Source of the DNA: a virus
Strand: one strand, 5' to 3'
DNA: 36,632 bases
Virus record (IMG/VR): IMGVR_UViG_3300010885_006384
Span: 1-36,632 of that record
Under the pieces are notes generated by a model. The model ran no database searches and was not told the origin of the DNA. It saw only the letters and a list, made by a program, of their open reading frames with translations. Positions 4,130 through 29,183 of the stretch are shown piece after piece (positions within the stretch are counted from its first letter, which is position 1; each line of letters starts with the position of its first letter). The position numbers and the translations under genes are program-made.

Positions 4130-5484
4130 TGGCTAATACACCTGATTGGGCATCAGAATCCCCTAAATCTACTACCGCTGAACCAGCCCCTGATTGGGCT
4201 ACATCTCGACCTGGACAATCTATTGCTAAACGTCCTGGTGACCCATCTTTTCCACAACAAATGTACGGCATGGCTTACGGTGCGGGAACAGAACTATTGG
4301 GCGCACCTGGAGAGATTGAAGAATTTTTTACTACTAGCGGTAAAGGTGAAAAATTAGGTGGAAAAGGTCAAGCGTTTCCTACTGCTGCTGAAATTCGTAA
4401 GGGAACAAGCGAAACATTCAAGCCAGCAAAAGGCACAGAAGCAATGCAGACAGTTGGTCAAGTTGGCGCTGATATTGGCATGGCAGTTCCAGCTATGTAT
4501 CGTGGCGTAGGAAAGTTAGTTGGAGGCACAACAAAAGAAGGCGAAAGAATTGCTGGAGTTGCCGAAAAGATGGGTTTTAAGCTATCACCATCTCAAGTTC
4601 GTGCTGAATCACCTGTAGCTGAAAAAGGCGCTGCTTTTTATTCTAAAGAAAATCAAGTTCTTGCTAATAGGCTTGCATCCAAAGGCACTGGAGTGCAAAC
4701 GGATGAGGTAACTGGAAAATTCATTGAAAAAAGAATTAAAGATTTAGGCAAAGAATTTGATAAGGTTTATAAAGGCAAAGAATTTAAAATTGATGCCTCA
4801 GTAGCACCAACAATTCAAAATATTCTTGCAAGAGAGCAAGATTTGGGGTTTGCTGGAGTACCTGCCGTTAAGGGTGCAGCTCAATCTATTTTAGACAATA
4901 TTGCTACTGGCAAAGTAAAGGGCGATGATGTTCAACGCTTGAGAAATGCCCTTACACAATCAGCTAGATCTGCTGGAAGTCGTGGAAAAGCTCATGAAAT
5001 ATATGAGTTGGTGGATGTGCTAGATAGGGCAGTAGAAAACTCTAATCCTGCCATGAAAGCTACTTTAGAGCGTATTCGCCCTCAATATCGCAATACCGTG
5101 ATTCTTGAAGATTTATACAATTCAGGCGGAATTAAGCATGGAAATGTCAGTTTAGAGCGTCTTGGTGGAGTTGTAGGCGATAAAAATACTTTACGCAGAA
5201 ATCCATCTGATATTGATACTCTTGGTGAAATTGGGCGTGAATTAGGATTAAGAGCAAGGTGGGAATCTGCTGGTGGAGATATTCCTGAATTAGTTGAAAA
5301 AACCACTAGAACTCACGGTCCTTTATCCACAGCCATTCGTAGTCTTGCCACGCCATTACGAACACGTTATGCTCGTGCAGCTCAAAGATCTGCTCAAAGA
5401 GGAAGCACACCACAAAAATTAGGCGAGGCTCTAGGCACTGTGCCAGCTATTGAAGAAATTATTGGACCTAAAGAAAAAAGATGA
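4129..5484 (+). CDS. Probable internal virion protein
   Basis: The 451-residue product starts at a TAATG overlap and ends four bases into the next gene. The N-terminus has two near-repeats, TPDWASESP and APDWATSRP. A Gly-rich amphipathic segment lies near residues 50-65 (GAGTELLGAPGEIEEF) and a hydrophobic one near 108-130. The C-terminal half is charged and helical, with many Arg residues. It is the last of four consecutive large, low-homology structural genes. I would expect it in the virion interior, but no catalytic or fold-defining motif supports a precise role. Confidence 0.75.
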   Translation: MANTPDWASESPKSTTAEPAPDWATSRPGQSIAKRPGDPSFPQQMYGMAYGAGTELLGAPGEIEEFFTTSGKGEKLGGKGQAFPTAAEIRKGTSETFKPAKGTEAMQTVGQVGADIGMAVPAMYRGVGKLVGGTTKEGERIAGVAEKMGFKLSPSQVRAESPVAEKGAAFYSKENQVLANRLASKGTGVQTDEVTGKFIEKRIKDLGKEFDKVYKGKEFKIDASVAPTIQNILAREQDLGFAGVPAVKGAAQSILDNIATGKVKGDDVQRLRNALTQSARSAGSRGKAHEIYELVDVLDRAVENSNPAMKATLERIRPQYRNTVILEDLYNSGGIKHGNVSLERLGGVVGDKNTLRRNPSDIDTLGEIGRELGLRARWESAGGDIPELVEKTTRTHGPLSTAIRSLATPLRTRYARAAQRSAQRGSTPQKLGEALGTVPAIEEIIGPKEKR

Positions 5485-5948: not shown

Positions 5949-8540
5949 ATGCCAGATAGCATGATTGTAGTACCCCAACCAGCACAAACTGATCCCGTTG
6001 GTAAATATAGGGTTTCAACTCCCCAGTCATTGATTGACACTGACTTTGAATATGGTCAACAATCTACTAAATGGGAGCAATTGGCGTTAGAAAACAACCG
6101 TCAATCATGTTACTACTTTACCAACAACCCATTAAACATTGGATCTATTACTGGTAACGGAACAACAACTATAGTCGTTCAATCCAATTCAAACATTGGC
6201 GCTAACAAACCAATATTTTTGGAAGAAACGCTAGACCCTAATGCTAACGGGTGGTTTTATACGCAATCATCTAATGCTACGGCAATTATTGTTCAAACAA
6301 CTAGTAACACAGCTAGTGGTGCTTTATATAATCCTACCGCTACCTATGGCTATCAAGGTTTTTTCTATACCAACGCAGGTATTCCAGTAACAGCAAGTAG
6401 CTCCACTGCCATCATTCTTACTGGTAGTTTAATTGTAGTAAACACTACATACGCTCACGGTTTGTCTGCTGGTTCTTTGGTTTACATTGTTAATACAACT
6501 GGTGTTGCGGGATTAAATAACGCTTGGGTAGTTTCTGCTGTTCAATCTGCAAATCAATTTCAAATTGCCTCTACATTAACAGGTACAGCTACAACTGGTA
6601 CGGCTCAAGGTACAGTTTATGCAAGACCATCAGGATACGTTGAAACCCGTGCTTTTAACGGTTCTGTAAACTTTACTGCGGGTTCTGCTGTGCCAAATCA
6701 GCAAATGATCCGTCAAACAAGACGTTATTTCCGCTATCAATCTGGTAAAGGTATTCAGTTTTCAACTGGTTCTGTATTAAAACCAAGATTATTGACGAGT
6801 AACGTCACTGCTAGTGGATCAGTCATTACTGTGGTAACTCGTACTCCACATAACTTGACCACCAATGCAACTATTCAAGTAACTGGCGCAACAGCTAATA
6901 CTTACAATGGTATTTTTAAAATTCAAAGTATTCCTAATGCCAATACCATTACTTATAACACTGTTAATAACGTCACCCCTACAAGCAGCGTAGCGGTAAC
7001 GTCAACTGGTTTCCCACCAAACGTGTACCCTTATGGCTGGTATGGATCAAGCAACAAAATTGGCTTTTTTGATAATCAAAACGGTATGTTTTTCCAATTT
7101 GATGGTCAAACTTTGTATGCCGTTTATAGAAATAGCACCAACCAATTAGGCGGTGTTGTTGCTGCAAGCCAAGGTAACGCTACTGTTACTGGTACAGGTA
7201 CGTCATTTACAAGCCAGATCAACATAGGTGATTTTATTGTTATTCGTGGTCAATCTTATCGTGTTACCAATATTTTTAGTGACACCAGTATGAATATTGC
7301 CCCTGAATACATGGGTGCATCCGTTACACAAGCGCTAATTTCAAAAACAGTTGATTTAAAGATACCTAACTCACAATGGCTAGATCCTTGTGACGGCACA
7401 GGTCCTTCTGGATACAACATTGACCTAACCAAAAACCAAATGTGGTTTATTGATTACTCTTGGTATGGTGCTGGTGTCATTCGTTGGGGATTAAGAACCA
7501 CTAACGGCACGATCAATTACGTTTATGCCTTACAAAGCAATAACGTGCAATCTGGTGCTTATCTTCGCTCTGGTAACTTACCAAGTCGTTATGAATCTAA
7601 CGGTCAAGGTCCAATAACTACCCTTTATTCAAATATTACTAACGTAGCAAACGTCATTCCAGTAGTAAGTTCTTCTGGTTTTAGTCCTTTAGGAGGCACA
7701 GTAAAAATTACTGGATCTGCTGTAAATGCTGCTATCGAATACGCAAACTACACAGGTATTATTGCTAACTCAGCCTCAGGATTAGGCTACGATCAGTTAA
7801 CTGGTGTGACTAGAGGTGTCACAGGTGGAGCTGCTGCAACCGCATTTACTGCTGCAACTCCTGCAACTAATGCAACCCCACCAGTATCAGTAGAGTATTC
7901 TCCTCCTGATTCTGTAGCAGTAATTTCACACTGGGGTTCATCTGTTGTAATGGATGGTGGATTTTCTAATGACGTATCACTGATCTTTAACTACGGAACT
8001 ACTGCTAACGTGACAGTTGCCAATGGTGGCGTTGTTCCTATTCTTGCCATTCGTGTAGCTCCTAGCGTAGATAACGGCACAGTTGGAACTCTTGGCAATA
8101 AAGAGGTTATCAACCGTTTACAGTTGCAATTACGTGAATTAGGTGTTGTAACATCTGGTGCGTTCTTAATTCAATTGATTTTGAATGGTCAGGCAACTAG
8201 CTTTAGCGGTACTTTTGCTTCACCAACACAAAACAACACTTACACATCATCTATTTGTCAGGTGGCTGCAAACTCTAATGCTTCTGCAACCATTACTGGT
8301 GGTGAATCAATTGGAGCTGCGTTTACTAATAGCACTGGACAAACAACCCTTGATTTAACATCTATTGCAGGTATTGGTAATGCCATTTTGGGTGGTGGAC
8401 TAAACAATAACGTTCCATCTGCAACTAATGCAGGTCAATTTCCAGATGGTCCAGATATTTTGTATGTAGTGGCAAATAACGTAAGTGGTGGTAACGCAAC
8501 CATTATTGCCCGTTTAAGCTGGCAAGAATCTCAAGCATAA
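5949..8540 (+). CDS. Large tail/virion surface protein with beta-rich repeats
   Basis: The 863-residue protein is rich in Thr/Asn/Gly/Val. After an N-terminal motif (PQPAQTDPVGKYRVSTPQSL, residues 9-28) come two similar beta-type modules at about 165-210 (THAHGL-like, here TYAHGLSAGSLVYI) and 297-340 (TPHNLTTNATIQVTG...YNGIF). A related module lies at about 405-455 (GNATVTGTGTSF...IGDFIVIRG). The C-terminal 250 residues are another beta-rich domain. I recognise the N-terminal motif as typical of structural proteins in marine and freshwater short-tailed phages. The inserted modules suggest an exposed, receptor- or glycan-contacting tail component. The exact particle location is unknown. Confidence 0.8.
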   Translation: MPDSMIVVPQPAQTDPVGKYRVSTPQSLIDTDFEYGQQSTKWEQLALENNRQSCYYFTNNPLNIGSITGNGTTTIVVQSNSNIGANKPIFLEETLDPNANGWFYTQSSNATAIIVQTTSNTASGALYNPTATYGYQGFFYTNAGIPVTASSSTAIILTGSLIVVNTTYAHGLSAGSLVYIVNTTGVAGLNNAWVVSAVQSANQFQIASTLTGTATTGTAQGTVYARPSGYVETRAFNGSVNFTAGSAVPNQQMIRQTRRYFRYQSGKGIQFSTGSVLKPRLLTSNVTASGSVITVVTRTPHNLTTNATIQVTGATANTYNGIFKIQSIPNANTITYNTVNNVTPTSSVAVTSTGFPPNVYPYGWYGSSNKIGFFDNQNGMFFQFDGQTLYAVYRNSTNQLGGVVAASQGNATVTGTGTSFTSQINIGDFIVIRGQSYRVTNIFSDTSMNIAPEYMGASVTQALISKTVDLKIPNSQWLDPCDGTGPSGYNIDLTKNQMWFIDYSWYGAGVIRWGLRTTNGTINYVYALQSNNVQSGAYLRSGNLPSRYESNGQGPITTLYSNITNVANVIPVVSSSGFSPLGGTVKITGSAVNAAIEYANYTGIIANSASGLGYDQLTGVTRGVTGGAAATAFTAATPATNATPPVSVEYSPPDSVAVISHWGSSVVMDGGFSNDVSLIFNYGTTANVTVANGGVVPILAIRVAPSVDNGTVGTLGNKEVINRLQLQLRELGVVTSGAFLIQLILNGQATSFSGTFASPTQNNTYTSSICQVAANSNASATITGGESIGAAFTNSTGQTTLDLTSIAGIGNAILGGGLNNNVPSATNAGQFPDGPDILYVVANNVSGGNATIIARLSWQESQA

Positions 8541-9383: not shown

Positions 9384-9769
9384 TTGCTTGCTTAGTTTCT
9401 GTCACTTTGATTTTCATTGCTGGCTGGACTATCAACGGCTGGCGTTACGAAAAGAGGATTGCAAACGAGAGGACTGCTCAGGAGAAAGTCATTCAACAGA
9501 AAGAGGCTGCAAACCAACTTGTTGCCGATCAAATCAGGAAAGATAAAGATGCTCAAATCAATGCTATTAACGATCAGCTTGCTAATGCTCTTGTGCAGTT
9601 GCGCTCGCGCCCCAGTCGTAGTCAATACAACTCCAACATTGGACAAGACGGCACTGGGAGATCCCTTTCTGCCGAAGATGCAGAATTTCTTATCAGGGAA
9701 GCTACCAGAGCAGACAAAATAAGGATTGCATTAGATGCCTGTTATAAACAATATGATGAGGTCAAGTAA
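9356..9769 (+). CDS. Rz: Rz-like inner-membrane spanin
   Basis: The 137-residue protein has one N-terminal membrane helix (about 8-28) followed by a charged coiled coil (about 30-85) rich in Glu/Lys/Gln, and a soluble C-terminal part. This is the i-spanin layout: an inner-membrane protein whose periplasmic rod pairs with an outer-membrane lipoprotein to fuse the two membranes at the end of lysis. The start is GTG at 9356, inside the endolysin gene. A second reading frame inside this gene encodes the partner Rz1. The position after a GH24 endolysin supports the call. Confidence 0.85.
   Translation: MFGSIQYKLIACLVSVTLIFIAGWTINGWRYEKRIANERTAQEKVIQQKEAANQLVADQIRKDKDAQINAINDQLANALVQLRSRPSRSQYNSNIGQDGTGRSLSAEDAEFLIREATRADKIRIALDACYKQYDEVK
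9549..9722 (+). CDS. Rz1: Rz1-like outer-membrane spanin lipoprotein, nested within Rz
   Basis: This 57-residue product is read in a different frame wholly inside Rz, the classic embedded Rz1 arrangement. It has a signal peptide (MLKSMLLTISLLMLLCSC) with a lipobox whose acceptor is most likely Cys18 (L-C-S-C), or else Cys16. The mature part is short and contains prolines (ARAPVVVNTTPT, DPFLP). The ATG at 9549 is preceded by AGGAA with eight bases of spacing. The frame continues upstream without a stop, but those codons have no ribosome site and no signal sequence, so the short form is preferred. Confidence 0.8.
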   Translation: MLKSMLLTISLLMLLCSCARAPVVVNTTPTLDKTALGDPFLPKMQNFLSGKLPEQTK

Positions 9770-9993
9770 TGCCTAAAAATACTAATCTTTCTGTAGGTCG
9801 TGGTGAAAAACAATCTGTTTCTGCTGGCGGTGGATTGACTGCTAAGGGCAGACGTAAATACAATAGAGCAACAGGTAGCAAACTTAAAGCGCCAACTAAA
9901 TCAGGTCCTAGGCACAAGTCTTTTTGCGCTAGATCTAAAAGTTGGAAAGGTGAACGAGGTAAAGCAGCTAGAAGAAGGTGGGGTTGTAGATGA
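9769..9993 (+). CDS. Small basic phage protein (DUF6321-like)
   Basis: The 74-residue, very basic protein has the motif SAGGGLTAKGRRKYNRATGS followed by SFCARSKSWKG and a C-terminal RRRWGC. I recognise these motifs as those of small phage proteins commonly annotated DUF6321; this is recall, not a search. Function is unknown, and the charge suggests nucleic-acid binding or a virion component. It is coupled to Rz by TAATG and to the next gene by ATGA. Confidence 0.8.
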   Translation: MPKNTNLSVGRGEKQSVSAGGGLTAKGRRKYNRATGSKLKAPTKSGPRHKSFCARSKSWKGERGKAARRRWGCR

Positions 9994-10142
9994 AACCAGG
10001 ACTTTATGCCAATATCCATAAAAAGAGAGAGCGTATCCGCAAAGGATCAGGCGAGAGAATGAGAACGCCTGGCACTAAAGGCGCTCCTACCGCATCAGCA
10101 TTTAGAAAATCTAAAAGAACTGCAAGAAAATCTAAACGCTAA
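9990..10142 (+). CDS. Small basic phage protein (50 aa)
   Basis: The ORF starts in an ATGA overlap and ends at 10142, two bases from the end of the convergent glycosyltransferase gene. The product begins MKPGLYANIHKKRERI and contains GSGERMRTPGTKGAPTA, then a Lys/Arg-rich tail. Proteins of this pattern are widespread in short-tailed aquatic phages and usually follow the preceding family, so the pair looks like a conserved unit. No function is known. No intrinsic terminator is visible after it. Confidence 0.8.
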   Translation: MKPGLYANIHKKRERIRKGSGERMRTPGTKGAPTASAFRKSKRTARKSKR

Positions 10143-10950: not shown

Positions 10951-12045
10951 TTAAATGAAGTTATCGGTACTAGCGTTTACATAATCGTTAATCAATATGT
11001 TCTTTCCATCGTTAGAACATTCGTGCATACAAGTAGTTTTGGCATTAAATTTATTAAAGTATTCCTTGGTTTCTTTGCTAAACCATAAGTCTGTAAACCT
11101 TTTGCCGTTAATAGAGCCTATGCAACCAGTGCTATCGTAGGCTTTGTTATGACAGGCATACACATTAAGATCCGCACCGATGACTGGCACGGTTTGCATG
11201 ATGTAACATCTTTTATAGCTTCGTACACTAGAGTGACTGCTGCCAGGAGTAATGTTATAAGTGCTATTAACACTAAAGTTTTCAGAAGTAATAGTTTGAA
11301 TTTTTGCAAGTTGCTCATTGACTTCATCTGCTATTTCCTTATGGTAATCATAAAAATCTGGCACATACATTGGACTAAAACGCACATTTTCAACACCACA
11401 GTCTTTTAATAACTGACTGTACCCCCATAAATTTTTGTAATTGTTGCGATGCACAATATAATTCACCCCTAAATCACAGTTTGCATCTTTAATGGCAGCA
11501 AAATTTTTAATATTCTTAATAACAGAGTCAAAGCTCTTTTCAGGCACGTTCCTAAATCGCTTCATTTCAGCGCCATCGGTGTAGTCCATACTGACCCTTA
11601 CCCATTTAGCTTTTGACAGCACCTCGGCACGTTCTTTGGCTAAATTTTGACCGTTAGTGATGATGGATAGATCAAGACCTAACTCTAATGTTCTACGCAT
11701 GATTGGCACAATGTCAGGGTGCATCAATGGCTCACCACCACCAGAATAGGTCACTGCTTTAGTACCTATACGTTGCAAGTCATAAAGAATTTCCATCATC
11801 TTTTCAGTGGGGATGACATCATCTTCTTTCATATCTTCGTGCATCCCACTAATGATGTGCTGCTCATCCCCGCCATCTTTCACCCTAAAACCAGTGCTAT
11901 ACACGCAAAAAAAACATCCGTGATTGCAAATGTTAATTGGCTTGATGCGAACATATAGCGGTGCTAAAACCTCCCCCGCCCCAAAAGATTTCAGCTTTTC
12001 TGGAAAATAAAATATCTTAAAATTGCTGTATTTGTTGTTTTTCAC
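10951..12045 (-). CDS. Radical SAM enzyme with SPASM-like C-terminus
   Basis: The 364-residue protein has the radical SAM cluster motif Cys40-X3-Cys44-X2-Cys47 (CNHGCFFC) and the GGE-type SAM-binding motif (SGGGEP, about 101-106). C-terminal Cys280, 298, 308, 339 and 343 resemble a partial SPASM/twitch domain that could hold an auxiliary Fe-S cluster or bind substrate. Such enzymes start radical chemistry from S-adenosylmethionine; the substrate here is unknown. The GTG start at 12045 follows AAGGA and overlaps the upstream stop (GTGA), so it is coupled to the E1 beta-like gene. SPASM members often modify peptides, but others act on sugars or small molecules. Confidence 0.88.
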   Translation of the reverse strand: MKNNKYSNFKIFYFPEKLKSFGAGEVLAPLYVRIKPINICNHGCFFCVYSTGFRVKDGGDEQHIISGMHEDMKEDDVIPTEKMMEILYDLQRIGTKAVTYSGGGEPLMHPDIVPIMRRTLELGLDLSIITNGQNLAKERAEVLSKAKWVRVSMDYTDGAEMKRFRNVPEKSFDSVIKNIKNFAAIKDANCDLGVNYIVHRNNYKNLWGYSQLLKDCGVENVRFSPMYVPDFYDYHKEIADEVNEQLAKIQTITSENFSVNSTYNITPGSSHSSVRSYKRCYIMQTVPVIGADLNVYACHNKAYDSTGCIGSINGKRFTDLWFSKETKEYFNKFNAKTTCMHECSNDGKNILINDYVNASTDNFI

Positions 12046-12557
12046 ATTAAATCCTTGTATTCAACAATGATGCAAGATTTTTTTCTTGACATTGCCAGCC
12101 CATAGGCAGTTTTGACAAAATTCTCATTTAGCACGTTATAAATAGGTATTTCAACCATATCACGTAATGGCGCAGTAAAATTTTGAACGTGTGTTGCACC
12201 CGTGTAGAGTGGTTTTGTGATATTACCTACAATGCAGCGAATGATGACAACAGGATCAAACTCATCATTGCTAATGTCTTTGATTTTGTCTAAATGATTG
12301 ACTATTGCATCCATTGCGTTCATCAAAAAATCCATTCTTTCAATAAAAACAACGGGTTTTAGCCCTGTTAGCGCCATTCCAATAGCAACTCCCATCATTA
12401 AATTTTCCGCTACTGGCATTTCTATAATTTGACCATCTGGCACGTTATTTAAAGTGCCTAATGCACGACCCTTTTGCAGCCCATAGCCAATAAAACGCGT
12501 TTTAGGATCTTTTGCAAGCTCAGTATTTGAGTTAGTGATCTGCTCTTTGTATGTCAT
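12042..12557 (-). CDS. Thiamine-diphosphate enzyme, E1 beta-like Pyr domain subunit
   Basis: The 171-residue protein resembles the N-terminal pyrimidine-binding domain of transketolase and pyruvate dehydrogenase E1 beta. It has a short strand and loop (RFIGYGLQKG) and a motif EMPVAEN, whose Glu51 should correspond to the Glu that activates the cofactor. MGVAIGMALTGLKPVVF is typical of this domain. The C-terminal transketolase domain is absent; full E1 beta chains are about 325 residues. Start and stop overlap both neighbours (ATGA, GTGA). It probably forms a heteromeric enzyme with the next-upstream alpha-like chain. The donor substrate cannot be inferred. Confidence 0.82.
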   Translation of the reverse strand: MTYKEQITNSNTELAKDPKTRFIGYGLQKGRALGTLNNVPDGQIIEMPVAENLMMGVAIGMALTGLKPVVFIERMDFLMNAMDAIVNHLDKIKDISNDEFDPVVIIRCIVGNITKPLYTGATHVQNFTAPLRDMVEIPIYNVLNENFVKTAYGLAMSRKKSCIIVEYKDLM

Positions 12558-13174
12558 TTTTTTTCTTTGAAAATAATGTGTTTTTTTGTGCCGTTACCAG
12601 CATGAGGATAAGTAGCGGTATATTCATTGCGTATTACGCAAGATGGCATTTCAAACCTAAATTTATTAGGATTACGTTCTTCAAGAGTGGTATCTACTGA
12701 TCTGTTGTTATCTTCAATAATGAACATACAAGGTAAATCTTGACCCTCTACAAACATCACAGCCTCGTAAAAGTGACCTTGCTCCTCAGCTCCATCACCT
12801 AAAAAGCAATATACCCAGTTATCACTGCCTGATGCTTTTAGTGAATAAGCTACACCTGCTGCAATACCACAAGTGCCAGCCAAAATGCTCGAAGTAAAAA
12901 AATGACGATTACTGTCGAAAACAAACATAGAATTGCCATGCAAAATACGTTCCATAAGCTCAGGTTCGGGTATTCCAGCCAATAAAGCGTGATGATGATT
13001 CCGATGAGTGCTGAAAATCCAATCTCCATCTTTGATATCCTGTTTGAATAAATCAATCAAAAAATCTTCATTACCGCCTGATAGGTGTATGAGATAAGGC
13101 AGATCACCGTTTTCCCAGTGTTCCGATACCTTTTTCTCAAACGCAATAAGCTGTTCTTTTGTGCAGTATTCCAT
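12554..13174 (-). CDS. Thiamine-diphosphate enzyme, E1 alpha-like PP domain subunit
   Basis: The 206-residue protein carries the diphosphate-binding signature GDG (126-128) followed 27 residues later by NN (156-157), the GDG-X27-NN pattern of these enzymes. HRNHHHALLAG (57-67) resembles the His-containing loop of E1 alpha. It is about 120 residues shorter than a normal E1 alpha (about 330). With the beta-like gene it looks like a two-chain mini transketolase or decarboxylase. The gene is coupled to the upstream membrane-protein gene by TAATG and to the beta-like gene by ATGA. Reaction type is known at superfamily level (C-C bond cleavage or transfer next to a carbonyl); substrate unknown. Confidence 0.85.
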   Translation of the reverse strand: MEYCTKEQLIAFEKKVSEHWENGDLPYLIHLSGGNEDFLIDLFKQDIKDGDWIFSTHRNHHHALLAGIPEPELMERILHGNSMFVFDSNRHFFTSSILAGTCGIAAGVAYSLKASGSDNWVYCFLGDGAEEQGHFYEAVMFVEGQDLPCMFIIEDNNRSVDTTLEERNPNKFRFEMPSCVIRNEYTATYPHAGNGTKKHIIFKEKK

Positions 13175-17601: not shown

Positions 17602-17793
17602 TAATACGGGGCATTTACCCAGCCCTCCTAAACATTGTGGTGATGGATAGGGATAAACGAGGTGGCTTTCATCTGTCAGACCTTTACAGGAACGCACTGG
17701 CTTAGTTAAGCACCAACCGATAAACGATAACCACTCTCTTTTTGAGAACTTCCGCCCTAAGCGGGTTTGGGGCTTAGCTCTTTTCTCAATCAC
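17563..17793 (-). CDS. Possible small protein downstream of the PP-loop gene (76 aa)
   Basis: The likely start is GTG at 17793, overlapping the end of the PP-loop gene by eight bases. The frame runs further upstream only inside that gene. The product is basic then Cys-rich (EKRAKPQTRLGRKF at the start, CLGGLGKCPVLVCFNGG near the end). Its last codons lie in the inverted repeat described at this position. No family recognised. Tight overlap supports expression, but no clear ribosome site is seen. Confidence 0.5.
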   Translation of the reverse strand: MIEKRAKPQTRLGRKFSKREWLSFIGWCLTKPVRSCKGLTDESHLVYPYPSPQCLGGLGKCPVLVCFNGGFNGEWS

Positions 17794-18607
17794 CACAAAA
17801 ACACGCAATACCTTCTTCATCTGCAAACAGGTCATCTTGCTTTCCCACATTGTCAAACATCTGTTGGTAACTTGGTCGATCTTTTCTAAACCTTGCCCCA
17901 TCCCCTGTAAATTGACCAGCAGAGTGGATTCGAGCTTCCTGAGTAGCCCACCAGATCGCACGAGATGGTTTTTCAGCAATAAGGGATTGAATTTGATGAC
18001 GACCTTTTAAAAAGCATAGGTCACAATTACCATGAACAGTTTTACCCCCTCTGTTAGGTAATCCCAAATCAAAGGGTTGCTCTTGCCAAAACTTGCCAAC
18101 ATCGGCAGCAGTAACTCCTGCCGTATAAAGTGGCACACGCTCACGTGACATTTTGACTGCTCTGCGGGGTTCATCGGCTCTAATGCCAACCCAATCCATG
18201 TTTTCGTTGTGTTCCCAACCTAATGATTTTAAGTAGCGGTGAATGGTTCTAATCTTGAGTTCTATGGTGCAAAACCTCGTTACAGGGTTTGGAAGATAGT
18301 TTTTCTTGGTAATTAAGGCTTCAAACGGCTCTCCAGACCTGCTGGCAGTTAAAAAGTCCACCACCTTAAACTTGGGATCGGTTGGCAAATACTCAACCCA
18401 TGCGATAGGTACTTTCCAATGCTCTGAGCAATCCTGAACGAATCTGAGTGTTGCTTCTTCTTCCTTACCTGTATTTGCAAAACAAACCACAGCTTCTTCT
18501 GGTAACCCGTCATTGGACTGCAACACCCGCCAAAGCATATAAGCGGAAGTTCTGCCACCGCTAAAGCTAATCACAGTCGGTTCTAATATCTTAAAGGGAT
18601 CACTCAT
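17786..18607 (-). CDS. PAPS reductase-like PP-loop protein with Cys cluster
   Basis: The 273-residue protein has the PP-loop ATP pyrophosphatase motif SFSGGRTSAYML (residues 14-25), followed by CFANTGKEEEATL, as in the CysH/DndC superfamily. Five cysteines (113, 195, 198, 269, 271; GNCDLCFLKG and ACFCGD) could bind an Fe-S cluster. Members either reduce PAPS in sulfur assimilation or activate a substrate for sulfur transfer, as DndC does for phosphorothioate DNA. Lack of the CysH C-terminal redox motif argues against simple PAPS reduction. Proximity to a DNA methyltransferase-like gene makes nucleic-acid modification possible, but this is inference. Confidence 0.85.
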   Translation of the reverse strand: MSDPFKILEPTVISFSGGRTSAYMLWRVLQSNDGLPEEAVVCFANTGKEEEATLRFVQDCSEHWKVPIAWVEYLPTDPKFKVVDFLTASRSGEPFEALITKKNYLPNPVTRFCTIELKIRTIHRYLKSLGWEHNENMDWVGIRADEPRRAVKMSRERVPLYTAGVTAADVGKFWQEQPFDLGLPNRGGKTVHGNCDLCFLKGRHQIQSLIAEKPSRAIWWATQEARIHSAGQFTGDGARFRKDRPSYQQMFDNVGKQDDLFADEEGIACFCGD

Positions 18608-24178: not shown

Positions 24179-24730
24179 ATGGCAGTTGTAAATGATTTTC
24201 ACTGTGCAAAGCACGGATACTTTGAATCTAGGGAGGCTAAATGCCCCATGAAAGGTTGTCATGAAGAAGTTATGGTCGTATTTTTGCAAGCTCCTAACCT
24301 TATCAGCCAAAAAACTAGATTCACAGATAAGTCAACAAAGCAACTTGCAATCGAGTTCGATATGTCAGACATCAAAACCACCCGTGAAGGTGAAAACCAA
24401 GCAGGTTACCTCACCCGCAAAAACAAGTTCAAAGAAAAAGACTACGCAGAAGCCGAAAAGTACGCAACTCGTAAAAGAGGCAACAAAGACAAACTTAAAC
24501 CAGTTCCCACTCAAGAAGCGCCAAAAGAAAGCCGTCCAGGGGATGCAGCGATCTGGGGCGGGGGAATGAAGGGAATGAATATGCAATCCATTCTTGCAGG
24601 TCAGTTTGCTAAACCTGTAAGAGATGAGCAAGTGGGCTTGACACCTAATCAAGCTGGCATTATAAAAGGACCTACAACCCTTGCTGGCGGTACAATGAGA
24701 GATCCCGATAACTTGCAAATTAAAAAATGA
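24179..24730 (+). CDS. Hypothetical protein with N-terminal zinc-binding motif
   Basis: The 183-residue protein begins with Cys9, His12, Cys22 and Cys27 (HCAKHGYFESREAKCPMKGC), a probable zinc ribbon. The middle is a charged Lys-rich helix (KNKFKEKDYAEAEKYATRKR) and the C-terminal third is Gly/Pro-rich. It is coupled to the portal gene (ATGA). The location between terminase and portal is typical for small head-associated proteins, but no named family is recognised. Confidence 0.72.
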   Translation: MAVVNDFHCAKHGYFESREAKCPMKGCHEEVMVVFLQAPNLISQKTRFTDKSTKQLAIEFDMSDIKTTREGENQAGYLTRKNKFKEKDYAEAEKYATRKRGNKDKLKPVPTQEAPKESRPGDAAIWGGGMKGMNMQSILAGQFAKPVRDEQVGLTPNQAGIIKGPTTLAGGTMRDPDNLQIKK

Positions 24731-26352
24731 AAATTCCGTCATCACCTGAAGCTAGAGAAGAATTATATTTGGACATCATCAATAAGTGCATGGTGTCCAA
24801 AGAAGCTAGAAAGGGTGATTACACAACACTAAGAGCATATTATTTATTTGGCGCAGGTCCAGAACAACCACCAGCGTATTTCAATAAGATTCATCCGCAC
24901 TTAGATCAACTTACTTCATTTTTATATTCAGCAGAAACAACACGATTCTCTATTGCGCTAGGCGCATCGGTACATCCAGCCGAACATCACAAAGCACCAA
25001 CATTAACTCAAGCACTCAATGATGAGTGGCTTAACTCTAATGCAGACCAAGTATTTTCAACTGCACTGACATGGGCGCTTGTGTACAACACCACTTTTAT
25101 TAAGCTGGTGTACAACAAAGGTATTCATCCTTACATGATTGAACCGTCATCTATTGGCGTGTTGCGTGAGGATACCCCATATACAGACAGGCAAGAAGCC
25201 ATAACACAAACTTACTACATTACTAAATCGGAGCTGTACGCCCGTCTGTATTCCCATCCAAAGCGTGAGCAGATTGTTTCACGTATTACTTCAGGAACAA
25301 AAACATCTGATTCAGAGATTCCTGATGCAGTAAACCGTATTGTGATGAGCCAAACCAATCCAACAATCTACGGCAACATCAATTTAGATTTGTACGGCAT
25401 GAACCGTTACAAAGCTCAGGTTGCTGAAGAAACTGTTGAGATGACTGAGTTGTGGCTATGGAATGATGACACTGAGGATTATCAAGTAGTCACAATGGCT
25501 GCTCCTGACATCATTGTTTACGACAGACCTGGTGCAAGCCTGTTCCTTAAAGGTGAGTGTCCTTTTGTACAGATCGCACCGAATCCTTTGCCTGATTACT
25601 ATTGGGGAGCATCTGAAGCTCAGCAGTTGATCTTGTTACAAGAGTTACGCAATACCCGCATGGTAGAGATTCTTGATCTTTTATCTAAACAAGTAGCGCC
25701 ACCAACAGCATTTAGTGGTTTTAGCGGTATTACAGATGAAAAATACTTTGCTATGCAACGTGCTGGCTCATTGATTGCGTCTGATATGCCTGGCGGTAAA
25801 GTAGATCGCTTATCTCCTGAAATGCCACCTGATCTATTTGAGGTTATTCATGAGATTGACCTAATGTTTTCTGAAGTATCAGGTATCAGCAACGTATTAA
25901 GCGGTAAAGGTGAATCAGGCGTTAGAAGCCAAGGTCATGCAAGCCAACTAGCTCGTCTTGGAAGTTCAAGAGCTAAAAAACGGGCTTTGATTGTAGAAGA
26001 TAGTCTTGAAAAGGTAGCAACCTTGTATATGAAGCTATTGCAAGCCTACGATGACACGCATTTTAAAGATGAAGATGGCAAAGCCTTTATTGCCGAGCAA
26101 TTTACTAAAGATTTTGTAGTTAAAGTAGATGCTCACTCTAATAGCCCTATTTTCACAGAGGATTTGAAACAATTAGCATTTAATCTGTTTAAAGCTAAAG
26201 CAATTGATGCTGAATCACTGCTTGACTTGACAGAACCACCAATGAAACAATTGCTTAAAGATAAATTGAAACGCAGAGAGAAGATGGAAGCATCGCAACC
26301 TAAAAAACAAGCTCCTGCGCCTAAAGGCAAGAAAGAACCAGAGGTCGGATAA
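24727..26352 (+). CDS. Portal protein
   Basis: The 541-residue protein sits between terminase and scaffold. The motif PFVQIAPNPLPDYYWGASEA, then QQLILLQELRNTRMVEILDL, LSGKGESGVRSQGHASQLAR and LIVEDSLEKVATLYMKLLQA, resemble portals of short-tailed phages. The dodecameric ring is the DNA entry and exit channel at one capsid vertex and the seat of the adaptor. The last 25 residues are Lys/Pro-rich. The stop overlaps the next start (TAATG). Confidence 0.9.
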   Translation: MKIPSSPEAREELYLDIINKCMVSKEARKGDYTTLRAYYLFGAGPEQPPAYFNKIHPHLDQLTSFLYSAETTRFSIALGASVHPAEHHKAPTLTQALNDEWLNSNADQVFSTALTWALVYNTTFIKLVYNKGIHPYMIEPSSIGVLREDTPYTDRQEAITQTYYITKSELYARLYSHPKREQIVSRITSGTKTSDSEIPDAVNRIVMSQTNPTIYGNINLDLYGMNRYKAQVAEETVEMTELWLWNDDTEDYQVVTMAAPDIIVYDRPGASLFLKGECPFVQIAPNPLPDYYWGASEAQQLILLQELRNTRMVEILDLLSKQVAPPTAFSGFSGITDEKYFAMQRAGSLIASDMPGGKVDRLSPEMPPDLFEVIHEIDLMFSEVSGISNVLSGKGESGVRSQGHASQLARLGSSRAKKRALIVEDSLEKVATLYMKLLQAYDDTHFKDEDGKAFIAEQFTKDFVVKVDAHSNSPIFTEDLKQLAFNLFKAKAIDAESLLDLTEPPMKQLLKDKLKRREKMEASQPKKQAPAPKGKKEPEVG

Positions 26353-26516
26353 TGGCAAGAGGAAACGTAGCACCTAAAGCAGATCAACCGAGAGTTACTA
26401 CCGAATCTTTAAAAAGAGATGCGAAACCAACAAATTTGCAGTATCGTACTCAAGGTGTAAAGAGTTTTGATAGATCCTCTAAAACGAGAGATCTAGGTCG
26501 TTCAGTCAGGGGATAG
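26352..26516 (+). CDS. Small basic protein after portal (54 aa)
   Basis: The ATG overlaps the portal stop (TAATG). The product (MARGNVAPKADQPRVTTESL at the start, KTRDLGRSVRG at the end) is basic and disordered-looking. No signal or hydrophobic segment. It precedes the tiny basic ORFs and could belong with them. Function unknown. Confidence 0.7.
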   Translation: MARGNVAPKADQPRVTTESLKRDAKPTNLQYRTQGVKSFDRSSKTRDLGRSVRG

Positions 26517-26612
26517 TTATTTTGGAGAGCAAAATGGCACGTAAGACAAAAAAAGGTCGTAAAAGCTGCAAATAAACAAATTAGGGGATAGCTTAATTTG
26601 GAGATCAAAATG
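26508..26612 (+). repeat. Duplicated leader ahead of tiny basic ORFs
   Basis: Two near-identical leaders lie at 26508-26536 and 26583-26612. Each has AGGGGATAG, a TTA/TTT stretch, TTTGGAGA, then CAAAATG, about 75 bases apart. Each ends with the start of a basic micro-ORF. The repeat includes both an AGGGGATA element and a separate GGAG ribosome site. The third micro-ORF at 26740 has a different leader with TATAGGAGAAATCTC. Confidence 0.75.
26534..26575 (+). CDS. Micro-ORF 1: basic 13-residue peptide
   Basis: The peptide is MARKTKKGRKSCK: Lys/Arg make up 7 of 13 residues, with one Cys. GGAG lies seven bases before ATG. It has no homolog I can name. The core KKGRKS is shared with micro-ORF 3. 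Short Arg/Lys peptides could neutralise packaged DNA or mediate protein contacts, as the J protein does in microviruses (analogy only). Confidence 0.6.
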   Translation: MARKTKKGRKSCK

Positions 26613-26654
26613 TACGGTAAAAAAGCCAAGCGTGGTCGCAAATCCCGCAGATAA
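26610..26654 (+). CDS. Micro-ORF 2: basic 14-residue peptide
   Basis: The peptide is MYGKKAKRGRKSRR: eight of 14 residues are Lys or Arg. GGAG lies seven bases before ATG, in the duplicated leader. It shares the RGRKS-type core with the neighbouring micro-ORFs, so it is a member of a small paralogous set. No other support exists for translation. Confidence 0.6.
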   Translation: MYGKKAKRGRKSRR

Positions 26655-26739
26655 GTTTCTCGCTCCTTCACACGAAAGAGAAAAGGGGTGTGTTGCTCTC
26701 CCTATAAAATGAGTAGCTAAACGCTATAGGAGAAATCTC

Positions 26740-26778
26740 ATGCGTGGACGTAAAAAAGGTCGTAAATCTCGTAAGTAA
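26740..26778 (+). CDS. Micro-ORF 3: basic 12-residue peptide
   Basis: The peptide is MRGRKKGRKSRK: eight of 12 residues are Lys or Arg. A ribosome site (TATAGGAG) lies seven bases before ATG. The 85 bases before it (26655-26739) hold no other ORF of note; a TAGC/GCTA hairpin sits upstream of the ribosome site. A GUAA-loop hairpin begins at its end (26774). Confidence 0.55.
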   Translation: MRGRKKGRKSRK

Positions 26779-26793
26779 TCCGTAAGGATTGCT
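26774..26793 (+). other. GNRA-loop hairpin at the end of micro-ORF 3
   Basis: The RNA AGUAAUCC-GUAA-GGAUUGCU folds into an 8-bp stem (one G-U pair) with a GUAA tetraloop, which fits the stable GNRA class. It overlaps the stop codon of micro-ORF 3. Only three T follow, so it is a weak terminator at best; RNA protection or translation control are alternatives. Confidence 0.5.
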
Positions 26794-26816
26794 TTGGGAG
26801 ACCAAACTAGTCCTAC

Positions 26817-26845
26817 GGGGAGGAGGAAACTAAATAAACCTCCCC
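26817..26845 (+). terminator. GC-rich hairpin, possible partial terminator
   Basis: GGGGAGG (26817-26823) and CCTCCCC (26839-26845) form a perfect 7-bp stem with a 15-base AT-rich loop. No T run follows, so it does not meet the intrinsic-terminator rule. It lies immediately before a candidate promoter, which would separate the portal segment from the scaffold and capsid segment. Confidence 0.4.
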
Positions 26846-26847
26846 AC

Positions 26848-26875
26848 TTGACAATTGATAGATTAAGATTACGAT
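26848..26875 (+). promoter_or_regulatory. Candidate sigma70 promoter before the scaffold/capsid segment
   Basis: TTGACA (26848-26853, perfect) is followed after 16 bases by TACGAT (26870-26875, four of six). A start near 26882 would give a short leader to the ATG at 26901 (ribosome site AGGAAAA). This would raise expression of the scaffold and capsid genes, needed in large amounts. The weak -10 lowers confidence. Confidence 0.5.
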
Positions 26876-26900
26876 TAGCAATAATTTCATAGGAAAATAT

Positions 26901-27401
26901 ATGGGCGTACCGTCAGACAAGCTAATGGAAATGATTAAATCCCAAAAGGATGGTGCAACTCCTGGTGGGTTACCGCAAGCGCCAGAAGGTCCTGGCAACA
27001 TTTCTGACAATTCTGCTCCTCCTATGGGATCGCCTATGTCCACTCCTGAACCTAAGATGGGTAATCGGGAAGCCTCAATGATTAACATTTCGATGGCTAT
27101 GGATTTACTTGAACAAGCCTTACCCGCTATTGGTAGCGAATCACCAGAAGGGCAAAAACTGCTTGCTGCTATTCGCACCATGACAGGAATTATCGGTCCT
27201 AAGAAGTCTAAGGTTAACGAACTTCAACCTACCGAAATCATGCAAATGCTTCAAACATTACCCCAAGCTGGTGGCGCAACGGCTGAAGGCAAAGCAATGC
27301 AACAAGCGCCACAAATCCCAGGTATGTCTGCCCCAACACCACCTCCAGCAATGCCAGGTGGTATGCCAGGTGGCGCACCTTCCGCAACTCCAAAAATGTA
27401 A
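26901..27401 (+). CDS. Hypothetical Met/Pro/Gly-rich protein (166 aa)
   Basis: The start follows AGGAAAATAT. The N-terminal part is Pro/Gly-rich and disordered. The centre (ASMINISMAMDLLEQALPAI then GQKLLAAIRTMTGII) is a helical segment. The C-terminal 40 residues are Pro/Met/Gly repeats (PGGMPGGAP). The layout resembles small scaffolding-associated or minor head proteins; its place just before the scaffold gene fits. No family recognised. Confidence 0.68.
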   Translation: MGVPSDKLMEMIKSQKDGATPGGLPQAPEGPGNISDNSAPPMGSPMSTPEPKMGNREASMINISMAMDLLEQALPAIGSESPEGQKLLAAIRTMTGIIGPKKSKVNELQPTEIMQMLQTLPQAGGATAEGKAMQQAPQIPGMSAPTPPPAMPGGMPGGAPSATPKM

Positions 27402-27614: not shown

Positions 27615-28136
27615 ATGTCTTTAGAAGATCTTTCATTAGAACAGCGTGATGAGTTGGCATTATTAGCCAAGCAATTGTCTGACAATCCAAACACACGTAA
27701 AGAATTTTTACGCATGACCAAAAAGGTTCGCCCTGAGCTTTCAGTACCAGAACTCGACATTGAGGAATACACTAACTCTAAAGTTAATGATGCCGAAAAA
27801 AGAGTGATGGCTTTGGAATCTAAATTACGTGAGCGTGATGCAGTTGAAGAACTAAACAAACGCAGAGCAAGATTAGGTCGTAGCGAAGAAGAAGTTGCTG
27901 AGATTGAAAAGTTAATGCTTGAAAAGGGTATGACTAATCACGAAACAGCATCTGAATATTTTGATTGGATGAAGCAAGCAGCAACGCCTACTCCGATGGG
28001 ATACAGCTCTAGCCCAATGAATAAGTTTAACCTTGAGAAGTATTGGAAGAACCCACAAATGGGCGCTAGAGATGAAGCACAAAAAGCGCTGATGGAATTG
28101 AAAAACCAAAATTCAAGACCTATCGGTTTTAAATAA
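27615..28136 (+). CDS. Probable scaffolding protein
   Basis: The 173-residue protein directly precedes the major capsid gene. It is charged and helical, with a long coiled-coil segment (about 60-100: NDAEKRVMALESKLRERDAV then EELNKRRARLGRSEEEVAEI), and has a more basic C-terminus (NPQMGARDEAQKALM, RPIGFK). Acidic coiled-coil proteins with a basic C-terminal end just upstream of the coat are scaffolds in many tailed phages; here that is inference from position and composition. The leader AGGGGATAAATT serves as the ribosome site. Confidence 0.7.
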   Translation: MSLEDLSLEQRDELALLAKQLSDNPNTRKEFLRMTKKVRPELSVPELDIEEYTNSKVNDAEKRVMALESKLRERDAVEELNKRRARLGRSEEEVAEIEKLMLEKGMTNHETASEYFDWMKQAATPTPMGYSSSPMNKFNLEKYWKNPQMGARDEAQKALMELKNQNSRPIGFK

Positions 28137-28172: not shown

Positions 28173-29183
28173 ATGCCAATAGGCGGAGGAATAGTTCCAG
28201 CCTCGGGTTCATCGCAATATACTGAGTTAACTTACGTAACTCGTAGAGCGTTTATCCCCAAGCTGGTCGTACAGCTTTACAACAGCACACCTTTGATGGC
28301 TGCTTTGATTGCAAACAGTCAACAAGCTTCAGGTGGTGTATCCCAAGTAACCGTGCCAGTTCAAGGCGCTCAATTTGTTAACGCACAGTGGTCTGACTAC
28401 TCTGGTTCTTTTAACCAGCCAGCAGTTCAGCAAGGTGCATTTAACGCTGAATTTAACTTAAAGTTAATGATTGCTCCAGTACCTTTCTTAGGTATGGAAG
28501 GTGCAGTTCAGCAAGATTACGCCATTATTCCATTGATCGAAGCTCGTATGAACGATGCGACCAACGTAATGATGGATGCAATGGCTACTGCGCTTTATAA
28601 CAACTACACCAACACACAACAGTTTATTGGCTTGCCAGGCGCTATTGATGATGGTACAAACTTAACAACTTACGGTAACATCAATCGTTCTACTTACACT
28701 TGGTGGAAGTCAACACGTTATGCAGCAGGTAACGTAAACCCAACACGTCAAAACGTATTGCAGTACATTTCTGGCACTGTCAAAAAAGGTGCTGAAGTTC
28801 CTACTTTTGCCGTTTGCGGTTTTGGTACATGGACTTTGTTAGCACAAGACTATGTAGGTCAAGAGCAATACGTTATCACCCCAGGAAACGCTTTTGATGG
28901 CGATTCCAACGGTCCTCAAGCAGCTTTCCGTGCATTGATGGTCGCTGGTGTTCCTGTTTATCCAGATCCATACTGTCCTGAAGGTATCATGTACTTCATC
29001 AACAGTAACTACTTGAACCTCTATATCCACGATCAAGGTTCTTTCGTATTTACTGGTTTTGAATCTACATTACCAAACTGGCAGATCGGTTATGTTGGCG
29101 CTGTCTTGATGATTGCCGAATTGGTAAGCACCAAGCCTAAGTCAATGACTGTGGTGTCTGGTTATAACTCTATTTCACTATAA
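28173..29183 (+). CDS. Major capsid protein (HK97-like fold, inferred)
   Basis: The 336-residue protein follows the scaffold candidate and starts MPIGGGIVPASGSSQYTELT. It has ALIANSQQASGGVSQVTVPV, a helix-rich stretch with MNDATNVMMDAMATALY and QFIGLPGAIDDGTNL, typical of capsid proteins of short-tailed aquatic phages. YAAGNVNPTRQNVLQYISG and PVYPDPYCPEGIMYFI are in the C-terminal half. A strong leader (TAGGAG), its size and the position between scaffold and decoration-like genes support the call. HK97 fold is expected for tailed phages, not shown here. Confidence 0.85.
   Translation: MPIGGGIVPASGSSQYTELTYVTRRAFIPKLVVQLYNSTPLMAALIANSQQASGGVSQVTVPVQGAQFVNAQWSDYSGSFNQPAVQQGAFNAEFNLKLMIAPVPFLGMEGAVQQDYAIIPLIEARMNDATNVMMDAMATALYNNYTNTQQFIGLPGAIDDGTNLTTYGNINRSTYTWWKSTRYAAGNVNPTRQNVLQYISGTVKKGAEVPTFAVCGFGTWTLLAQDYVGQEQYVITPGNAFDGDSNGPQAAFRALMVAGVPVYPDPYCPEGIMYFINSNYLNLYIHDQGSFVFTGFESTLPNWQIGYVGAVLMIAELVSTKPKSMTVVSGYNSISL

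Follow-up and report, generated by a model that had tools for sequence, protein, structure and literature searches.

The window, by which we mean the whole 36.6-kb virus record that was analysed, carries genes for a large terminase, an SU10-type portal, an SU10-type adaptor (PF24175) and a podovirus-type capsid protein, and no tRNA genes were found in it. The portal gene is followed by a 54-aa ORF, three tiny ORFs, an inverted repeat, a promoter-like site and the gene for a 166-aa protein, and then by a 61-aa ORF, a 173-aa helical protein and the capsid gene. The features on which the analysis rests are as follows.

24727–26352, plus strand: portal protein, SU10-type (PF23899 above cut-off; PHROG 1216, portal)
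26352–26516, plus strand: 54-aa basic ORF, MARGNVAPKADQPRVTT...GRSVRG, overlapping the portal stop; conserved neighbour
26534–26575, plus strand: tiny basic peptide 1, MARKTKKGRKSCK, 13 residues, 54% Lys/Arg; GGAG at 26524–26527
26610–26654, plus strand: tiny basic peptide 2, MYGKKAKRGRKSRR, 14 residues, 57% Lys/Arg; GGAG at 26600–26603
26664–26727, plus strand: candidate hairpin and H-type pseudoknot with compensatory changes, between peptides 2 and 3 (gap 26655–26739)
26740–26778, plus strand: tiny basic peptide 3, MRGRKKGRKSRK, 12 residues, 67% Lys/Arg; GGAG at 26729–26732
26817–26845, plus strand: G+C-rich inverted repeat GGGGAGG..CCTCCCC, 3′ of peptide 3; similar hairpins in relatives
26848–26875, plus strand: predicted sigma-70-like promoter, TTGACA-16-TACGAT, 5′ of the gene that follows the array
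26901–27401, plus strand: 166-aa Pro/Gly/Met-rich protein directly 3′ of the array, earlier called scaffold
27615–28136, plus strand: 173-aa helical protein, likely scaffold by predicted fold and by its position ahead of the capsid gene
28173–29183, plus strand: major capsid protein (NF033394 capsid_maj_Podo, 148.9 bits, cut-off 80; PHROG 9953)

A sequence-only reading of this DNA had described three ORFs for Arg/Lys peptides, each with GGAG before its ATG, and this is what we observe: the sequences and coordinates are exactly as given, Lys and Arg form the majority of every peptide, and the distance from the end of GGAG to the ATG is 6, 6 and 7 nt for peptides 1, 2 and 3. When a tiny basic ORF is defined by a length of 8–22 aa, at least 50% Lys/Arg and a Shine-Dalgarno-like site, three are found in 26517–26900 as against a mean of 0.0032 per dinucleotide shuffle (maximum 1; 5,000 shuffles). 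On both strands of the whole window the only such ORFs are the three array members, and 30 shuffles of the whole window gave none. Elsewhere in the window, the gene for a DUF6321 protein (9769–9993, plus strand) is followed by a 27-aa basic ORF, MRTPGTKGAPTASAFRKSKRTARKSKR (10059–10142, plus strand), which is the sole other short basic ORF with a Shine-Dalgarno site among the window's listed ORFs.

The array had been placed between portal and scaffold. It does lie downstream of the portal gene, but the 54-aa ORF separates the two, and the 166-aa protein that comes next is probably not the scaffold. The 54-aa ORF is kept in the window's clade, with the N-terminal sequence PKADQPRVTTESLKR, and has no match in PHROGs, Pfam or NCBIfam. 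The 166-aa protein likewise has no match in the family libraries, and its AlphaFold2 model, with a low-confidence mean pLDDT of 61.5, has two central helices. The 173-aa protein, for which the family libraries gave nothing above cut-off, is modelled by AlphaFold2 with seven helices, one of them of 42 residues (mean pLDDT 77.5), and because of these predicted long helices and its place next to the capsid gene it is probably the better scaffold candidate. Away from the head genes, an island at 10951–13174 on the minus strand encodes a radical SAM protein and proteins with Transket_pyr and E1_dh domains (a split thiamine-diphosphate enzyme) and adjoins a glycosyltransferase-like gene; such metabolic genes are unusual for a 36-kb phage. 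A PAPS-reductase-type protein (PF01507) is encoded at 17786–18607, also on the minus strand.

For the relatives, contigs were gathered by portal or capsid similarity or by the peptide pattern, and ORFs were counted if they had an ATG, a Shine-Dalgarno-like site, 8–22 aa and at least 38% Lys/Arg. In the portal-to-head gap of related phages, where the sequence-only reading had proposed to search, 208 of the 211 distinct sequences hold one or more such ORFs (372 ORFs in 122 kb), as against 10 in 4,499 kb of other sequence on both strands; contigs derived from the pattern favour presence by construction, whereas those derived from similarity do not, yet the two agree. The phages that have them, a large uncultivated group of tailed phages, carry one to three tiny genes of 9–21 codons. 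Of 80 portal relatives, all those whose contigs extend far enough past the portal gene have tiny Lys/Arg-rich ORFs, and the pattern SD-ATG-..KGRKxxRK-stop occurs in at least 120 stretches of IMG/VR, all of those listed lying in contigs with the portal, neighbour or capsid genes of this group. The nearest annotated records, MW202753 (L082) and MW202825 (L083), are metagenome-assembled phages from Manatee Spring with 75–76% portal and 87% capsid identity to the window. Each has two tiny ORFs at the same place, none of them annotated; what is annotated there is two wrong-strand hypothetical ORFs in MW202753 (L082 4740–5038) and one in MW202825 (L083 6779–7039), in line with the earlier expectation that gene callers would miss such genes.

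The array persists at capsid identities of 37–40% and portal identities of 27–31%, and it is also kept in the L201 clade. In L110 and L187, deep relatives reached through the peptide pattern (portal 27–28%, capsid 40% identity), the portal gene is on the opposite strand, and a tiny ORF still directly precedes the Pro/Gly/Met-rich gene. The array thus goes with the head genes even when the portal is inverted, as the proposal that the peptides are made with the head genes would have it, and to judge by gene order the tiny genes are tied to the head genes. Scans that started from the L110 clade and from an intermediate clade gave tiny ORFs almost throughout, their peptides including MKRRKHKRK, MARRRKHRRK, MRGRRRGRRK, MAARTKRRTCR, MFNIETAIDKRGRKMSRKGRK, MYKSVKRGSRKGR and MRRKGRKARR. 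Part of a GC-rich clade (capsid 51% identity) has Arg-rich versions before the Pro/Gly/Met-rich gene, with Arg replacing Lys (MFTKELVAYRRKRRGRRK in L318, MDKELVRDRRRGRRGRRRR in L314 and MFTEIIRSRQGRRGRRKGR in L304); no clear typical member was seen in L315–L317 of this clade. The GC-rich clade also has, after the tiny ORF and ahead of the Pro/Gly/Met-rich gene, a second very basic ORF of 33–40 aa (L318 ~2219–2330, L304 1037–1140, L314 ~4580–4690; ARLSxxHxxAARxNLxxARxRRHxGR..).

The three gaps that fail the counting rule are those of L227, whose MTNLPVLDARHKGRKGRK falls just below threshold, L302, which retains only MYGKMPKPMKKPPMRDGKRS, and L306. The last (4520–4775), from a bin labelled Alphaproteobacteria, has a shortened gap with no tiny ORF, with a capsid 92% and a portal 65% identical, and on this comparison it is a natural loss, the one clean loss found. 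Thus, the tiny genes are not indispensable in every phage. Loss of the ORFs while nearby noncoding DNA is kept had been named as the outcome that would speak against them; what is found is the opposite: the ORFs are retained, and it is the intervening DNA that varies. No tiny basic ORFs were present in the stretches read of Mx9, BUCT555, Mwe-JY13, ppBjS10J-1 and a TM7 phage, which are recognised tailed phages with similar capsid proteins, or in that of SU10, so packaging in general needs no such peptides. The relatives that bear the array are all metagenomic sequences, and their bins are labelled as beta-proteobacteria, Saccharibacteria, Balneolaceae, Chloroflexi and others, with binning errors likely.

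A comparison of synonymous sites had also been suggested, and in 92 nonoverlapping nearest ORF pairs 133 of the 160 codons with a single difference are synonymous, where 50.3 would be expected (binomial p 2e-41). The dN/dS of these close pairs is ~0.09, and third positions hold 152 of the 212 nucleotide differences. Purifying selection thus acts at the amino acid level, and start, ribosome site and stop are conserved, as expected of protein-coding genes and as the sequence-only reading had supposed. Among 46 amino acid differences, 37 are between nonbasic residues (mostly A/S, G/S and S/T), 8 exchange Lys or Arg with another residue and 1 is Lys to Arg, an exchange that is also limited by the mutation paths from AAR to CGN. 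In these comparisons, charge is the feature that is kept. The 161 distinct peptides average 57% Lys plus Arg (R 31.5%, K 28.6%, G 9.5%, S 6.6%, A 5.9%), have almost no acidic, hydrophobic or Pro residues and end in Lys or Arg in 98.8% of cases.

Three C-terminal ends recur, [ST]C[KR], RKSRR and GRKxRK. The peptide 1 class (end S-C-K) is found in a minority of relatives (L009, L032, L045, L049), and peptides with a penultimate Cys occur in other clades as well. The peptide 2 class (end [ST]-R-R) is present in most relatives and shows third-position bias, with 84% synonymous changes, and the peptide 3 class (end GRK-[SAG]-RK) is the most widely kept of the three. That the three are duplicated genes, as had been proposed, is not proven, because peptides 2 and 3 belong to separately conserved classes (..RKSRR and ..GRKxRK) that occur together in relatives, and the sequences are of low complexity. 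It is virtually certain, as far as sequence can establish it, that the array ORFs are genuine genes of a widespread, fast-diverging family of ultra-short polycationic peptides.

In the window's clade, the gap between peptides 2 and 3 is 70–95 nt long and appears to contain a hairpin followed by an H-type pseudoknot, with a counterpart in MW202825 (L083) at 6852–6928. The pseudoknot's stem 1 would pair 26684–26687 with 26700–26703, and stem 2 would pair 26692–26698 with 26711–26717 (GUUGCUC/GAGUAGC in the window). Among 91 distinct gaps, stem 2 also occurs with pairing restored as GGCUGCU/AGUGGCC, GGCUGAC/GUUGGCC, AGCUGCC/GGUGGCU and CCUGCUC/GAGUAGG, and imperfectly as the common GGCUUCC/GGUCGCC, with two central mismatches, and as GGCUGCC/GGUGACC, with one. 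In 33 representative sequences, 88.6% of cells pair and changes on both sides number 32 cells as against 7.8 in shuffles that ignore the kinship of the sequences; slid controls were all far lower. A covariance model, which covers only stem 2 and sequence, matches the window with 52.7 bits, the window being among the model-building sequences, and it finds one copy per genome searched of the window's clade, always at this site. The same model gave nothing convincing in the L201 and L110 clades and one weak match (E 0.43) in L258, and Rfam searches were negative, both with gathering thresholds and, for two relatives, with E values as high as 5. The hairpin and pseudoknot are therefore offered as a candidate new RNA family. 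A 7-codon ORF in the same gap (MAAFPLK/MAALPYK), seemingly conserved in many relatives, was rejected as a gene and read as RNA because its frame is not kept in the window and its changes track the pseudoknot pairing. In L262–L273 (e.g., L267, 120–265 after the portal), the complementary stretches GGGAAGGUGAA/UUCACCCUUCCC flank the first tiny ORF, as seen by eye, and in L273 these stretches appear by eye to have changed on both sides (GGUUA/UAACC).

The ORFs could be by-products of a conserved RNA that are unselected as peptides, or chance ORFs, and their absence from family libraries and public annotation and the RNA structure nearby would fit this. We find it barely credible, since chance ORFs are ruled out by the shuffles (0.003 expected) and by the rarity of such ORFs elsewhere, a coding-free RNA explanation is ruled out by the synonymous excess, with its low dN/dS and third-position bias, and the ORFs are kept where the pseudoknot is absent. 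If they are translated, they could still be cis-acting leader peptides, where translation of a short Lys/Arg ORF tunes ribosome flow or attenuation downstream and the peptide is irrelevant; very short ORFs, strong ribosome sites and structured RNA between the ORFs are what such leaders would look like. A leader should hold a constant 5′ position and conserve its codons. In the window's clade, however, 110 of the 113 distinct sequences have TTGAC 3′ of peptide 3, where shuffles give 13.7; 63 of the 113 match a whole promoter there (1.3 in shuffles), and no such full match precedes the array. In the L110 clade, by contrast, TTGAC comes ahead of the first tiny ORF in 31 of 38 sequences (6.6 in shuffles). 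On these predicted promoters, the array would end the portal transcript in the window's clade and start the head transcript in the L110 clade, with read-through possible, so the head transcript does not always have it as a leader. The gene after the array is also a different one in L262–L273, two or three different peptides stand in tandem, and the amino acids stay while codons vary freely, most codon changes being synonymous. The swap of promoter side, the differing next gene and the free codon variation argue together against a leader peptide, which we regard as improbable, and for peptides that very probably act in trans.

What the peptides act on is less firmly indicated. They could be RNA-binding regulators, arginine-rich-motif peptides that bind the surrounding structured RNA, the pseudoknot in the window's clade and different helices in that of L201, and set the translation or stability of late transcripts. 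The compensatory-change pseudoknot just upstream of the peptide 3 ribosome site, in single copy per genome searched, makes RNA-based control a serious rival, and the stretches flanking the first tiny ORF in L262–L273 and the precedent of T4 gene 32, which is under autogenous control by a 5′ pseudoknot operator (PMC3014915), point the same way. Yet the L201 and L110 clades have the peptides and no convincing copy of the pseudoknot, and no common RNA target was found across clades; we therefore think this somewhat unlikely. Unlikely, too, is a cofactor of procapsid assembly that links the proteins of scaffold, capsid or portal by bridging their acidic surfaces. The head genes are constant neighbours of the array, the proteins encoded downstream tend to be slightly acidic, with mean net charges of −3.6 and −2.3, and there is a precedent in P22, where portal incorporation is reported to depend on a basic portal motif and scaffold (PMC13386823); but extreme drift with charge retained suits a nucleic-acid polycation better than a protein interface, and the next gene in L262–L273 is not the usual one. 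The more specific suggestion of a tether between portal and scaffold finds no particular support and has lost ground, because the peptides stay with the head genes where the portal of the L110 clade is inverted and so short a polycation suggests no two separate binding parts. Phage peptides that are small and basic can target the machinery of the host, and host-directed effectors that bind, for example, the ribosome or nucleoid could lie beside the head genes by happenstance. This seems very improbable for genes with a fixed place among late head genes in four clades, and the peptides have almost no hydrophobic residues for membrane action.

The reading that we prefer is that translation of the three ORFs, at the edge where the head-gene block starts, yields ultra-short (9–21 aa) polycationic peptides, which would be disordered and would act in trans by binding nucleic acid. 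That they bind nucleic acid we consider likely. Their main target may be phage DNA while heads assemble and fill; inside the head or next to it, they would condense this DNA or neutralise its charge. We propose action on packaged DNA or in the head tentatively, as a plausible but insecure assignment. The two or three variants (..S/T-C-K/R, ..RKSRR and ..GRKxRK) would be made together, perhaps each with a separate contact or partner; in the window's clade, the pseudoknot just before the peptide 3 ribosome site probably sets peptide 3 output. By arithmetic, one +8 peptide offsets 8 of ~73,000 phosphates, and offsetting 10% of 36.6 kb needs ~900 copies. That several C-termini are conserved points to a specificity beyond mere charge, and these ends, together with the Cys class and the pseudoknot, leave it doubtful that the role is purely unspecific.

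The J protein of microviruses such as phiX174 had been named as an analogue. Like J, a peptide of ~25–40 aa, the array peptides are small, basic and encoded with capsid genes, and nucleic-acid binding is proposed for them. J belongs to ssDNA microviruses and has a capsid-binding end, whereas the array belongs to dsDNA tailed phages and has one to three variants of 9–21 aa that lack an aromatic C-terminus; no homology is shown. The window has a large terminase, an SU10-type portal and a podovirus capsid protein where a J gene would sit with Microviridae capsid and spike genes, and its three peptides, like nearly all of their relatives, end in basic residues rather than in a hydrophobic or aromatic C-terminus. 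Because both virus type and C-terminal anatomy differ, the array peptides are not members of the J family, and DNA neutralisation in the manner of J would be an analogy. T4 gene 32 is like the array in having a pseudoknot upstream of the ribosome site and a product that binds nucleic acid (putatively so in the array), and the H-type pseudoknot before the ribosome site with its compensatory changes is a feature of the window's clade only. The T4 regulator is a 301-aa ssDNA-binding protein, whereas the array would have a 12-aa peptide, an unrelated pseudoknot and putative regulation. In composition the array peptides are protamine-like, with Arg and Lys dominant alongside Gly, Ser and Ala and with disorder expected from that composition. 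Baculovirus P6.9, which is several times longer, is also a virus-encoded, strongly basic polycation. P6.9 is reported to condense dsDNA in insect viruses and to be phosphorylated (PMC12159748, PMC6163548), and for the array DNA condensation would be an analogy. Kuravirus SU10 has portal (PF23899) and adaptor (PF24175) families related to those of the window in its head module, but what lies between its portal and scaffold genes is a 237-nt ORF, without any tiny basic one. A literature search covering few subscription papers found no published equivalent of the tiny basic peptide genes. Small phage genes have been predicted in bulk (Fremin et al. 2022, as cited in PMC11364881), and these predictions and the GMSC small-protein catalogue share with the array that unannotated short genes are concerned, found there by systematic prediction; GMSC starts at 30-nt ORFs, and its taxonomy database excludes phages (PMC11364881).

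The array may quite possibly represent a kind of gene product in tailed dsDNA phages that has so far gone unrecognised, namely sets of separately encoded polycations of 9–14 residues. As the head fills, these would enter it along with the genome or be placed on the genome, or else they would govern the switch to head production by way of an RNA pseudoknot. Default gene calling misses genes this short and tryptic proteomics would destroy peptides this rich in Lys and Arg, so comparable peptides may be overlooked elsewhere. If tied to virion assembly, the array genes, which are kept at ~40% capsid identity, would rank with the smallest of its genes that are conserved and independently translated. 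Binding to packaged DNA would mean that tailed phages, too, rely on a protamine-like strategy, one hitherto linked to other viruses; with binding to RNA, a 12-residue peptide and a pseudoknot operator would make up a minimal autoregulatory unit.
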